This document shows, piece by piece, positions 53,231 through 58,042 of a DNA stretch of 58,182 bases. The number at the start of each line of letters is the position of its first letter. The first letter of the stretch is position 1. The position numbers were made by a program, and so were the translations under genes. The notes beneath the pieces were generated by a model. That model was not told the DNA's origin. It was given only the letters and a program-made list of their open reading frames with translations, and did not search any database. The DNA is from Streptosporangiales bacterium (lineage in GTDB: Bacteria; Actinomycetota; Actinomycetes; Streptosporangiales; WHST01): assembly GCA_009379825.1 (NCBI GenBank), contig WHTA01000031.1, forward strand, positions 1-58,182. The letters run 5' to 3'.

Positions 53231-54976
53231 CTAGTCGTCCAGTCGGTCCCTGGGCTCGGTCGACTCCCGCGTGAGCGTGGCCGTCGCGGTGCCCGACGTG
53301 CTCGTGCCGCCCGCGCCGTCCGGCTCGGGCTCGTCGATCAAGCCTTCCTTGATCAGCGACTGCGACACGTGCTCGGTGAGCTCCTCGCGCTGGCGACGCC
53401 GCTGCACGCGCAGCACCGCCTGCCGCTCGGCGTGCAGCTCCTTGTACGTCGCGAAGCACATCAGGATCATCACGATGCTGAACGGCAACGCGATGAGGAT
53501 GGACATCGTCTGCAGTGCGACGAGCCCACCCGCGGTGAGCAACGCGATGGCGACTGCGCCTTCTGCGACCGCCCAGAAGATCCGGCTCCAGGTGGGTGGC
53601 TCCGGGTCGCCGCCGGACGCGAGCATGTCGACGACTAGCGATCCCGAGTCCGACGAGGTCACGAAGAACAGCGTGATCAGGATGATCGCGAGGATGCTGA
53701 CGAAGAACCCGCCTGGCAGGCCCTCGAGGAGGTTGAACAGGGCGCCGTCGGTGCTGACCGGCGGGTCCTGGCTCCTGTCGATGAAGTTGCCGTTCTGGAA
53801 CAGCTGCTTGTAGATGCCGGAACCGCCGAACACGGAGAACCAGAGGAACGTGATGACGCTCGGCACGAGCAGCACGCCACCGACGAACTGGCGGACCGTG
53901 CGCCCGCGGGAGATGCGGGCGATGAACACACCGACGAACGGTGCCCAGGAGATCCACCAACCCCAGTAGAACGAGGTCCACGTGGCCTGCCACGTCTGAC
54001 CGTCGCCACCCTGCAGGGCGGTGACGTCGAAGCTCAGCGACAGGATGTTCTGTACGTAGAGCCCGATCGACTGCATGAACTCGCGGGCGATGAACAGCGT
54101 CGGGCCGGTGAGGAGCACGAACAGCAGCATCCCACCGGCGAGACCCATGTTCAGGTTCGACAGCCACTTGATGCCCCGCTTCACACCGGTCACCACCGAC
54201 AGCGTGGCGAGAAGCGTGATGCTGCCGATCAGGATGATGTAGAGCATCGTGGACGGCTCGATGCCCATGGTGAAGCCGAGTCCGGCGCCGATCTGCATCA
54301 CACCGAGACCGAGCGACGTGGCGACACCGAACAGGGTGCCGACGATCGCGACGATGTCGATGAGGTCGCCGACCCAGCCCTTCACCCGGTCGCCGAACAG
54401 CGGCTCGAGTGCCCAGCGGATGGAGATCGGCCGGCCTTTGCGGTGCACCGCGTACGCGATCGCGAGGCCGATGACGACGTAGATCGCCCACGGGTGGATG
54501 CCCCAGTGGAGGAACGTCTGGATCATCGCCTGCTGGCCGGCCTCTTCGCGGGTCCCGTCGAAGCCCGGCTTCGGCTCGGCGAGGTGGCGCAGTGGCTCGG
54601 CGACGCCCCAGTACACCAGGCCGATGCCCATGCCGGCGGCGAACAGCATCGACAACCAGGCGACGACGCCGAACTCCGGCTCCTCGTCGTCCGGGCCGAG
54701 CTTGATGTCGCCGAAGTGTCCGACGCCGAGCCAGACGGCGAACACTACGAAGGCGGAGACCAGGCCGACGTAGTACCAGCTGAACCCGGCGACGATCGCC
54801 GACTGCACGGCCAGGATGAGAGTCTCTGCCTGCTTCGGCAGTGCGACGCCGTAGATGACGAAGGCGACGATGACGATGGCGGCAGGTATGAACACGCGTG
54901 GCGCGACCGAATGTCGCTGCGTACCGGTTGGACTGCTGCCGCCCGACGATTCTGGTGGCGCTGACGTTGTGGCCAC
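53231..54976 (-). CDS. BCCT-family betaine/carnitine/choline transporter
   Basis: This 581-residue transporter has about 12 helices. The BCCT signatures are clear: AAGMGIGLVYWGVAEPL, then WGIHPWAIYVVIG, and WGWWISWAPFVGVFIARISR with the Trp cluster that binds trimethylammonium compounds. The long charged C-terminal tail is typical of osmosensing members such as BetP. ATG 54976 is the natural start. It would import betaine or choline, complementing the glycine-to-betaine methyltransferase at 31627-33309, although the two genes are 20 kb apart. Confidence 0.9.
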   Translation of the reverse strand: MATTSAPPESSGGSSPTGTQRHSVAPRVFIPAAIVIVAFVIYGVALPKQAETLILAVQSAIVAGFSWYYVGLVSAFVVFAVWLGVGHFGDIKLGPDDEEPEFGVVAWLSMLFAAGMGIGLVYWGVAEPLRHLAEPKPGFDGTREEAGQQAMIQTFLHWGIHPWAIYVVIGLAIAYAVHRKGRPISIRWALEPLFGDRVKGWVGDLIDIVAIVGTLFGVATSLGLGVMQIGAGLGFTMGIEPSTMLYIILIGSITLLATLSVVTGVKRGIKWLSNLNMGLAGGMLLFVLLTGPTLFIAREFMQSIGLYVQNILSLSFDVTALQGGDGQTWQATWTSFYWGWWISWAPFVGVFIARISRGRTVRQFVGGVLLVPSVITFLWFSVFGGSGIYKQLFQNGNFIDRSQDPPVSTDGALFNLLEGLPGGFFVSILAIILITLFFVTSSDSGSLVVDMLASGGDPEPPTWSRIFWAVAEGAVAIALLTAGGLVALQTMSILIALPFSIVMILMCFATYKELHAERQAVLRVQRRRQREELTEHVSQSLIKEGLIDEPEPDGAGGTSTSGTATATLTRESTEPRDRLDD

Positions 54977-55429
54977 TAGTAGGCACCCTCCCGAGCCTGG
55001 GACTCCGCGAGCCGGGTAACGAAGCGCGGAATCCGCTGTCTGTACCGTTGTCGGGGCCTACCGTGTCGTAACTGGCCGCGGAACTCAAAGTCCTGGTCAA
55101 GATTTCGTTACAAGATTCCACGCTGTGGGTCCCGTCAGGTGCCCATCTCGCGCTCCCGGCGCCCCGTGGGACAGCGGCGTACTCACCGGCGATGCATCCC
55201 GCGATGCGGGTCGAGCAGGACTCGAACACTGCGCGTACTGGCCCAGTCATACACCCTGTGACCAGCGACGACGCTCGCTGAACGGCCGCGATGAAGCTGC
55301 TCGACCCGCCGTCGGATGGTCTGGAAGATTCGCAGCCGCCCGTCTACGCTGTGCGGATGTCGGCGGCCGGCCCATCCGGGCACCGCGGGCTAGGGGGCTT
55401 CCTACCCAAAGACGAGATGAGGGAGCCGG
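54977..55429. other. 453-bp divergent intergenic region
   Basis: Promoters for the BCCT gene (minus) and the Nramp-like gene (plus) must lie here. I see a short dyad GCATC-CCGC-GATGC near 55194-55207 but no strong operator, RNA gene or coding frame with family resemblance. A tRNA-like TTCGAGTCC on the minus strand near 55220 lacks a matching stem. Ribosome site GAGGGAG precedes the ATG at 55430. Confidence 0.35.
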
Positions 55430-56866
55430 ATGCCAGAAGTTAACGACGGGCAGACCTCGACGCTACCGAGCAAGTACCTGCCGGCAGTCGAGCAACGGGA
55501 TCTACCAGAACCCGTCCCGCTGAAGCGGGTCAGTGGCGCCAGCGTCATCATCCTGGCGACTGCTATCGGGTCGGGCGAGTTCATCCTCTGGCCCTACATC
55601 ACCACGCAGATCGGGTTCACGTTCATGTGGGCCGCAATCGTCGGGTTCGCCATCCAGTTCGTACTGAACATGGAGATCGAGCGGTACACGCTGGCGACCG
55701 GCGAGAGCGCGGTGACGGGGTTCGCCAGGCTCTTCAAGCCCTGGTGGTGGCTGTTCATCATCTTCGCGCTCCTGCAGAACTTCTGGCCAGGGTGGGCGAC
55801 AGGTGCCGCGACCACCTTCACGTACGTACTCGGGTTGGGCGAGAACGCACCGATCGTGCCGATCACGATCGCCGGCCTGATCGCCATCGGCCTGGCGTTG
55901 ACGCTGTCCCCGGTGGTCTACCAGGTCGTCGAGAAGATCCAGTTCGTGATGGTCATCATCATCATGGCGATCGTGATCGCGGCGATCCCGCTCGCCACCA
56001 CGGGCGAGGCCTGGGGCGCACTGTTCACCGAAGGTGTCGCCGACATCGGCTTCCCCATCGGTCAGGAGGGTCTCACCGCCGCACTGCTCCTCGGTGCGCT
56101 GGCGTTCGCCGGCGCCGGTGGCGCGAACAACCTGGTGCAGAGCAACTACATCAGGGACAAGGGCATGGGCATGGGGCAGCACATCCCCAGGATCGTGTCG
56201 CCGATCACCGGACAGGAAGAAGCCAAGCCCTCGCTCGGCTACACCTTCCCGACCACCGAGGAGAACATGCGTCGCTGGCGCGGCTGGTGGCGCGTGGCGA
56301 ACTGGGAGCAGTTCATCACGTTCTTCCTCGTCGGTGTGGCGTCGTTGATCATCCTGGCGGTGGTTGCGCATTCGTTGCTGCCCGTCGGCGAGGTGAAGGC
56401 ACAGGACCTCGAGTTCATCCTGCTCGAGGGCGAGGCGCTCAAGGAGCAGGTGGCTCCGTGGTTCGGCACCGCATTCTGGGTCGCCGGCACCATCACGTTG
56501 TTCTCCACCAACCTGGGCATCCTCGACTACACCTGCCGGCTGATCGCCGACCAGTTGAAGATCAACGTGTTCATGGAGAGCACGTTCTGGACGGAGAGCA
56601 AGGTGTACGCGGTCTTCGTCTGGCTGATGGTCGCGGTCGGGTCGATCATCCTGCTCGCGGGTGTGGACCAGCCGTTCGTCCTCGTGGTGATCGCGTCGTC
56701 CATCGCCGGTGTGCAGATGTTCATCTACTCCGGTCTGCTCATCGCGCTCAACCGGAAGGCGTTGCCGAAGCAGCTGCAGATCAGTGGTCTGCGACTGGCC
56801 GTGGTAGCGGTGTCGTTCCTCTTCTTCGGCTTCCTTTCTGTGATGCTCGTGCTGGACCAGTTCTGA
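55430..56866 (+). CDS. Nramp-like membrane transporter with non-canonical metal motifs
   Basis: This 478-residue protein has about 11 hydrophobic helices and an Nramp-type overall pattern. At the first helix, where Mn/Fe Nramp proteins have a DPGN motif, it reads ILATAIGSGEFILWPYIT. At the sixth helix, in place of the MPH motif, it reads FAGAGGANNLVQSNYIRDKG. Both canonical metal-binding motifs are thus missing, as in the divergent Nramp-related group, so transport of Mn or Fe is doubtful and another cation or solute is possible. It starts at ATG 55430 and its stop overlaps the start of a 32-residue membrane peptide. Confidence 0.75.
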   Translation: MPEVNDGQTSTLPSKYLPAVEQRDLPEPVPLKRVSGASVIILATAIGSGEFILWPYITTQIGFTFMWAAIVGFAIQFVLNMEIERYTLATGESAVTGFARLFKPWWWLFIIFALLQNFWPGWATGAATTFTYVLGLGENAPIVPITIAGLIAIGLALTLSPVVYQVVEKIQFVMVIIIMAIVIAAIPLATTGEAWGALFTEGVADIGFPIGQEGLTAALLLGALAFAGAGGANNLVQSNYIRDKGMGMGQHIPRIVSPITGQEEAKPSLGYTFPTTEENMRRWRGWWRVANWEQFITFFLVGVASLIILAVVAHSLLPVGEVKAQDLEFILLEGEALKEQVAPWFGTAFWVAGTITLFSTNLGILDYTCRLIADQLKINVFMESTFWTESKVYAVFVWLMVAVGSIILLAGVDQPFVLVVIASSIAGVQMFIYSGLLIALNRKALPKQLQISGLRLAVVAVSFLFFGFLSVMLVLDQF

Positions 56867-56964
56867 TGTCCATCCTGAAGCGGCTGTGGCTGAGGGTGCT
56901 CGTCGCCCTGACCATCTGGATGGTCCTCATCGCGCTGATGTGGGTCTTCGGACTGCTGCGCTGA
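56866..56964 (+). CDS. 32-residue single-helix membrane peptide
   Basis: ATG 56866 shares its A with the TGA of the Nramp-like gene (TGATG), so translation is probably coupled. The product begins MSILKRLWLRVLVAL, a basic amphipathic start, followed by one hydrophobic helix and ends FGLLR. Positive residues at the N-terminus suggest that end stays in the cytoplasm. It could be a small subunit or stabiliser of the transporter, as known for other small membrane proteins. There is no recognisable family. A terminator hairpin follows four bases after the stop. Confidence 0.65.
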   Translation: MSILKRLWLRVLVALTIWMVLIALMWVFGLLR

Positions 56965-56967
56965 CCG

Positions 56968-57004
56968 GTGCCTGACCGCCGGCGTGGAGCAGGCGGTCAG
57001 GCAC
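56968..57004. terminator. Bidirectional hairpin terminator
   Basis: GTGCCTGACCGCC, an 11-base loop, GGCGGTCAGGCAC: 13 perfect pairs. It lies between the convergent Nramp-like/peptide unit and the Rieske gene. No T tract follows. Confidence 0.75.
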
Positions 57005-57032
57005 GATAGCGTGGACGCCCGCCGCTGCGGGG

Positions 57033-57488
57033 TCAGCCCTTGCCTGTGACGACCTTGCCGGACTTCACGTGCACGTCGATGGAACCCAGCGGCGCGTCTG
57101 CGGGGCCACCGAGCACCTCGCCGTTCTCCGGGTCGAACCTGGACTGGTGGCAGGGGCACCGCAGCTCCTTGCCCTGTGGCTTGACGGGGCAGCCCTTGTG
57201 CGTGCACTTCGCGTCGAAGGCGACCGCGGTGTCATCGCCCGACCTGGTGACGATGATGTTCTTGTCACCCGACTTCACGCGGATGGCCGAGCCGACCTCG
57301 ATCTCCGACAACGTCGCCAGCGTGGCGCCCTCGTCGACGGGTGCGCTGCTCTTCTCGCCGCCGGACGAGCGGGTGGGGTCTGCGCTCTCTTCCTCGCCGC
57401 CGCCACAGGCGGCGAGGGCGATGACCCCCAGCCCGGCACTGGCCCCTGCGATCACCCGGCGGCGTGACGGCTGCGTACTGGAGTCCAC
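57033..57488 (-). CDS. Rieske [2Fe-2S] lipoprotein
   Basis: This 151-residue protein has a Tat-type signal with SRRRVIAGASAGLGVIALAAC; Cys28 would carry the lipid. The Rieske fold follows, with ligands Cys95 and His97 in CTHKGC and Cys111 and His114 in CPCHQSRF. Cys100 and Cys113 can form the usual disulfide. A Glu/Ser-rich linker separates the anchor from the domain. Such orphan Rieske lipoproteins are common in actinobacteria and probably carry electrons at the outer face of the membrane. Its redox partner is not visible here. Confidence 0.88.
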   Translation of the reverse strand: MDSSTQPSRRRVIAGASAGLGVIALAACGGGEEESADPTRSSGGEKSSAPVDEGATLATLSEIEVGSAIRVKSGDKNIIVTRSGDDTAVAFDAKCTHKGCPVKPQGKELRCPCHQSRFDPENGEVLGGPADAPLGSIDVHVKSGKVVTGKG

Positions 57489-57616
57489 GATCGTTCCCTT
57501 CCTGTCGGCGTTGTCCTCTACCTACGTGGCGACGGCCCGGTCGGTTCAGACCGAGTTGAACCGACCGGGCGCCGGGCACGTAGTCACCTGCAGCAGGTCG
57601 AGGTGAAGGGGCTGAT

Positions 57617-58042
57617 GTGATCGACATGGCTAGGTCGCAAGCCGGGGTGCGCAGCGGCATCGGGCTTGCCGAGGGCGTCCTACGGGGTGTGGTGGCCGCA
57701 GCGGTGCTGTTGTCCGCAGACATCCACCTGGTGCTCTACGTGGAAGGTTACTCGGACATCCCCGTCATCGGCCCGATGTTCGCCGTGAACGTGGTCGCCG
57801 GCCTGGCCATCGGCGTCGGCGTGCTCGTGTGGCGGCACTGGCTGGCCGCGTTCCTCGCCGCCGGGTTCGGTGCGGCGACGTTCGTCGCGTACCTGCTCTC
57901 CCGTACCGTCGGGCTGTTCGGCGTGCGGGAGATGAGCTGGGATGCCCAAGGTGTGCTCGCCGCCGTGGCAGAGGTGCTCGCCGTCGTCGGCGGTGTGGTA
58001 CTCCTGATCGCTGCCCGTCTACGATCCACTAGTGACAGCTGA
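57617..58042 (+). CDS. Small membrane protein with four helices, unknown function
   Basis: This protein of about 141 residues has hydrophobic stretches near residues 20-45, 50-72, 75-95 and 110-133, predicted as four membrane helices. GTG 57617 follows GAAGGGG; ATG 57626 is possible as well. The segment ADIHLVLYVEGYSDIPVIGP and the residues after it are conserved-looking, but I do not recognise a named domain. It diverges from the Rieske lipoprotein gene with 128 bases between starts, so the two may be jointly regulated. Confidence 0.6.
   Translation: MIDMARSQAGVRSGIGLAEGVLRGVVAAAVLLSADIHLVLYVEGYSDIPVIGPMFAVNVVAGLAIGVGVLVWRHWLAAFLAAGFGAATFVAYLLSRTVGLFGVREMSWDAQGVLAAVAEVLAVVGGVVLLIAARLRSTSDS

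Follow-up and report, generated by a model that had tools for sequence, protein, structure and literature searches.

A 32-codon open reading frame (ORF) that overlaps the 3′ end of an Nramp-fold transporter gene is, as judged from its conservation and substitution pattern, a real gene under selection as a protein. Its product is a conserved and overlooked small membrane protein that forms a new family within a known kind, the single-span peptides associated with transporters, with a new type of partner. The ORF lies in the window, the whole 58,182-nucleotide stretch of DNA that was analysed, which is contig 31 of a 6.15-Mb Streptosporangiales genome. Genes for small membrane proteins are annotated particularly poorly, and the peptide described here is conserved together with a defined partner. 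Because the pair is kept together in distant actinobacterial groups, the peptide very probably works as a partner of the transporter. This partnership is best read as that of an accessory subunit, and the main rival is a brake or turnover adaptor.

Locus layout and coding signature of the peptide gene

The transporter gene (55430–56866, forward strand) encodes a 478-residue protein, assigned through the NCBIfam model NF037982 and the fold of a relative, L017. The peptide gene (56866–56964, forward strand), recognized by ORF call, conservation and coding signature, consists of an ATG start, 32 codons and a TGA stop and is translated into MSILKRLWLRVLVALTIWMVLIALMWVFGLLR. The two genes share one base in a TGATG junction, formed by the TGA of the transporter (56864–56866) and the ATG of the peptide (56866–56868). 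The peptide begins with a basic N-terminus and continues into a single hydrophobic helix. An earlier sequence-only reading of this DNA had described both the junction and the basic, one-helix architecture, and both were borne out. It had also placed a terminator directly after the peptide stop. A strong and perfect 13-bp hairpin is indeed located there (56968–57004, forward strand) and may mark the transcript end; the 71 bases that contain it (56950–57020) fold with a z value of −4.8, and the 90 bases 3′ of the peptide stop with a z value of −2.5. The hairpin is not followed by a T-run, however, and a terminator scan of 55000–57700 found no terminator with a T-run. Moreover, the 90 bases past the peptide stop fold with z < −2 in only 12 of 38 related loci, and a conserved terminator was rejected as a general feature of the pair. 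A promoter scan of 55000–57700 returned zero sites, the transporter's own included. In the flanks, a Rieske domain protein gene (57033–57488, reverse strand) converges on the transporter–peptide pair; its product starts, as read by eye, with a twin-arginine-like signal and a Cys residue that could be lipidated. On the other side, a BCCT betaine/carnitine/choline-type transporter gene (53231–54976, reverse strand) is divergent from the Nramp-fold transporter gene.

The coding signature was derived from 25 peptides of the window's clade and two further branches. Pairwise differences at the first, second and third codon positions are 0.25, 0.14 and 0.36, respectively, compared with 0.67–0.70 in the flank past the peptide stop. 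The synonymous share of differing codons is 46% in the peptide frame. It drops to 17% and 9% when the remaining two sense frames are read, to 10–22% in the antisense frames and to 7–8% in the flank. The median dN/dS of the ORF is 0.31. Across 38 loci (L008 is omitted from this table, its peptide being equal to that of L007), the peptide is 29–33 residues long, and the start codons chosen are GTG in 17 loci, ATG in 14 and TTG in 7. The earlier claim of a real small protein is thus upheld by conservation behind related transporters and by selection at the protein level.

The peptide falls outside the families searched. Pfam and NCBIfam models gave a single hit to 17 peptides at E values up to 10 (DUF4389, once, E = 1.8), and the best matches of the literature searches include no description of the peptide. 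In the single annotated relative examined, plasmid NZ_CP031116.1 of Rubrobacter indicoceani, the PLSDB gene list, which is known to be incomplete, contains no gene between the transporter end at 157393 and position 157545, where the peptide is encoded. As far as this list goes, it agrees with the expectation that annotation would usually miss the peptide.

Conservation and co-inheritance of the transporter–peptide pair

A public-genome scan with the window transporter yielded 14 loci with 72–79% identity, all from Pseudonocardiaceae. All 14 contain a similar short ORF, whose start lies between −4 and +9 bases relative to the transporter stop. Searches with the transporter at three levels brought further loci: 345 genomes of the window's order, 394 of its class and 390 from the family to which a Prauserella genome belongs. 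The resulting sample comprises 158 distinct loci in which the transporter runs through to its C-terminus and in which the peptide was scored by profile search; it covers all matches with at least 50% identity, and a part of the nine matches at 45–48% and of those returned without a locus. L133, whose sequence ends before the transporter C-terminus, is not among the 158.

The peptide is encoded directly behind the transporter on the same strand in 39 of the 158 loci. In the window's clade, it accompanies every transporter (23/23, comprising 22 in a 96-row transporter tree and the broken locus L181). The tree also contains a second clade with the peptide in 10 of 10 members, a third with 4 of 4 and two single peptide-bearing branches. 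The presence or absence of the peptide requires 3 changes on this tree versus approximately 30 in shuffles; the tree holds 96 of the 158 loci, nine loci having been dropped by name and the rows without the peptide beyond the first 26 thinned to every third. The other 119 transporters lack the peptide and are 25–53% identical to that of the window, 95 of them at 38–50% and 13 at 50–53%; one of the 119, L064, has only 23 bases past its transporter stop. The fold therefore works without the peptide, and the pairing is steady but clade-specific. The sequence-only reading had named conservation of the short frame next to related transporters as its own check, and the frame is kept in this clade-specific manner and recurs outside the class.

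The peptide and the transporter are also matched in copy number and location. In a whole-genome profile search of 13 genomes, every genome but one contains a single strong match (E < 1e-11); the exception contains two, along with two transporters of the window's clade. A second profile match inside the window (E = 0.59) is weak and was taken as chance. Apart from the transporter, no family of at least 90 codons is present in more than 5 of 15 loci within flanks of up to approximately 4 kb. In L007 and L008 (1316–2854), from two Pseudonocardia genomes, an amidase gene is located immediately upstream of the transporter gene (the family scan covered L007 only).

Searches with the peptide alone returned to the same transporter family. 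Across the class (394 genomes), a 17-peptide profile recovered only the window's own copy plus a weak match of 16 residues. A 38-peptide profile matched 33 of 396 genomes of the phylum at E values up to 0.05, and 18 of these 33, from outside the window's class, share a single family group (code f60). A match in this group (G1157) agrees with the Rubrobacter indicoceani plasmid NZ_CP031116.1 in position and transporter identity, and the group should accordingly be Rubrobacteraceae. Among 19 loci opened, a subset of the profile matches that excludes 14 weaker rows and the window's own locus, the same transporter family lies directly upstream of the peptide in 17, one of which is cut by a contig end; loci outside the class were found via the peptide, and absence of the peptide there therefore cannot be read from them. 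The matches in L215 and L217 (E = 0.001–0.002) have no transporter alongside and were taken as false.

Peptide type agrees with transporter type. Across 54 pairs (L210, at a contig end, L215 and L217 omitted), peptide and transporter distances are correlated with a Mantel r of 0.69, and the largest value in 2000 permutations is 0.20. A second tree with 51 peptide-bearing rows was used, which omits L181, L206, L122, L073 and L019 and in which the rows without the peptide were thinned again. On this tree, peptide presence requires 4 changes versus 27 in shuffles, and the identity of a mid-helix peptide residue, W or F, changes once. Both residue types occur in group f60, where W peptides accompany the four transporters nearest to that of the window and F peptides accompany the eleven nearest to the second clade. 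Such agreement shows inheritance as a unit, not contact, because common descent predicts it if the genes never separate.

Fold, topology and substrate of the transporter

The window transporter scores 501.8 bits against NCBIfam NF037982 'Nramp_1' (cut-off 50) and is thereby labelled an Nramp family divalent metal transporter. Pfam assigns no family to it at E values up to 1, and PF01566 is absent from the 8 families that 36 transporter members match at E values up to 1. PDB sequences gave only an antibody chain with the single sequence (E = 0.29) and zero matches by profile. An AlphaFold model was built for L017, a relative 80% identical to the window transporter, with the peptide tethered through the stop codon. 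The model has a pTM value of 0.86 and, on reading of the helices, 11 transmembrane segments. It superimposes on DraNramp (6d91) with a Z score of 33.2 over 394 residues (rmsd 3.0), followed by other Nramp-like structures (human NRAMP1, 32.6; YcsG 9a52, 31.5; EleNRMT, 30.9), and the best Z score with a carrier that is not Nramp-like is 27.4. The earlier label 'Nramp-like' was right for the fold as represented by the L017 model. The window-type transporter resembles Nramp/SLC11 proteins, NRMT, YcsG and PxpT in this fold but differs from Nramp in that it lacks the helix-1 Asp, a PF01566 match and a PDB sequence match.

The positively charged residues suggest an orientation for both proteins. In the L017 model, K and R residues are absent from the outer loops and present in all inner loops except one short one; the transporter C-terminus should thus be outside. 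Over their first 12 residues, the 54 peptides average a charge of +2.4, by which the peptide N-terminus should stay inside.

Helix 1 of the window transporter contains the sequence ATAIGSGE, without Asp, and placement by eye aligns GSGE with the DxxN motif of Nramp, whose Asp and Asn residues bind metal (PMC8806188). All 36 rows compared have Gly49 and Glu50, and the two preceding residues vary. The usual Nramp metal site thus seems to be missing from the window transporter.

The gene context outside the window's class points to organic acids. On the Rubrobacter indicoceani plasmid NZ_CP031116.1, the pair is located near lactate utilization genes, a UxaA-type hydrolase gene and a four-carbon acid sugar kinase gene. 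Among 21 wider loci, clustering followed by a family scan of one member per cluster placed a LutB-like gene nearby in four (L218, L221, L222 and L227) and a PdxA-like gene nearby in three (L224, L225 and L226); L224 also proved to contain a DeoR-type regulator and an acid-sugar kinase. More broadly, L218 and several of L221–L227 lie near LUD/LutB, lactate racemase-like, PdxA-like, four-carbon acid sugar kinase or DeoR genes. The hydroxy-acid catabolism context is limited to loci of the Rubrobacter group, and no conserved organic-acid context was seen in the window or its clade. The missing Asp in helix 1 and the hydroxy-acid genes near several Rubrobacter-group loci make the label 'divalent metal transporter', and with it metal transport by the window transporter, doubtful. 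Known relatives of the fold include both kinds of function: growth on 5-oxoproline depends on PxpT, a homologue of YcsG (PMC13274462), and YcsG itself is reported as a manganese importer (PMC10448178). Transport of organic acids by this branch is the preferred reading, with about an even chance of being correct. If the partner does import organic acids, the name 'Nramp family divalent metal transporter' misleads for this branch, and expressing the carrier without the peptide could fail for a reason invisible in the annotation.

A wider proposal is put forward tentatively, its chance being somewhat below even. The peptides would constitute an undescribed family of 28–33-residue single-span subunits, inherited with a large Actinomycetota branch of Nramp-fold carriers that moves organic hydroxy acids and not metals. 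They would be the first accessory subunits known to serve a carrier with the Nramp fold, and the metal label of the branch would be wrong. Separately, on the Haloarcula plasmid NZ_CP073369.1 (156612–158800), a transporter gene with the same annotation is followed by an overlapping gene for a hypothetical protein, and a gene with FAD and Fe-S domains is found farther on, on the opposite strand.

Role of the peptide

The transporter and the peptide would form a two-gene unit in which a constitutive, single-span accessory subunit with its N-terminus inside binds, and stabilizes or activates, a carrier that imports organic acids; this combined reading is considered rather probable. A ribosome that ends the transporter would restart at once on the peptide, as the overlap or short gap suggests, and such translational coupling would supply the two proteins in matched amounts. 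The peptide would insert as one helix, with its basic N-terminus inside, and pack on the outer face of the 11-helix Nramp-fold carrier. The bound peptide may then stabilize or activate the carrier, a role comparable to that of MetS towards MetP or of KdpF towards the Kdp pump. Carriers of this branch would import small hydroxy or other organic acids, probably not metals. Since the carrier should end outside and the peptide should begin inside, joining the two directly would give the wrong topology; this may explain why the genes are separate. In the L017 model, the tethered peptide helix has block-mean pLDDT values of 49–65 and no confident placement; this result is neither for nor against binding because the tether makes the peptide start on the wrong side.

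Known small proteins also act on transporters as brakes or turnover tags (PMC10710835). By analogy with SgrT and MgtR, the peptide could bind the carrier and inhibit it or hand it to FtsH. Conservation and pairing fit such a brake as well as they fit a subunit. However, the peptide is co-encoded within 48 bases of the transporter in all 54 pairs, which suits a constitutive partner better than a conditional inhibitor, and the brake is regarded as unlikely.

The spacing and frame of the genes bear on the other alternatives. The peptide gene overlaps the transporter gene or follows it by fewer than 12 bases in 36 of the 54 pairs, and the gap is 12–48 bases in the other 18. The tight junctions would fit a peptide that aids insertion or folding of the carrier, or that acts in cis via translation of the mRNA end, without staying bound. 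Against this, some of the wider gaps contain purine-rich stretches that resemble ribosome sites by eye, and conservation is at the amino-acid level, which a cis effect does not need; this alternative is improbable. The size and single helix of the peptide would also suit the hydrophobic toxin of a toxin–antitoxin pair that stands behind the transporter by accident. This possibility is very remote, given that the peptide keeps to a single transporter family both within the class and beyond it and that 54900–58000 contains no Rfam family at the gathering score. A C-terminal extension of the transporter, produced by stop readthrough or frameshift, is just as improbable as a toxin: the peptide is in frame with the transporter in 27 of the 54 pairs but lies in the two other frames in 12 and 15 pairs, and this variation argues against a readthrough tail. 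In addition, a start codon heads each peptide, and the fused topology would be wrong. A chance ORF is practically out of the question in view of the conservation behind related transporters, the coding signature and the return of the peptide-only search to the same transporter family. These last three explanations were dropped.

The accessory-subunit reading has precedents in other transporter families. MetS serves as the small subunit of MetPS, an NSS-type methionine/alanine importer found in Corynebacterium glutamicum, and KdpF is a small protein that serves the Kdp pump. Like MetS (PF16951), the peptide is a membrane protein of very small size and goes with an actinobacterial secondary transporter of the LeuT fold. 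The two differ in that the PF16951 model has 60 positions and represents another family, and that the partner here has the Nramp fold. PF16951 gave no match in the window's genome and matched the C. glutamicum control. A table row of PMC2807442 reads 'metS, putative methionine transporter subunit'. MgtS, MgtU, MgtR, AcrZ and similar proteins of 28–49 residues act on a transporter (PMC10710835) and share with the peptide their size class and the link to a transporter, but the partners given for them in that source are P-type ATPases, an RND pump and PitA. The best literature matches listed contain no small subunit of an Nramp-, NRMT- or YcsG-type carrier; the nearest among them is MntS, a small protein induced together with MntH (PMC4361602).

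In L135 and L136, whose transporters are 50% identical to that of the window, the transporter stop is overlapped by another hydrophobic ORF, 28 residues long and unlike the peptide. The ORF of L135 encodes MKKLLTQFVVFCTVFGLLLSGAIALGMV. Neither of the two ORFs matches the peptide profile, and both were left out of the 39 peptide-bearing loci. They possibly represent a second small partner, unrelated to the peptide or very diverged from it.
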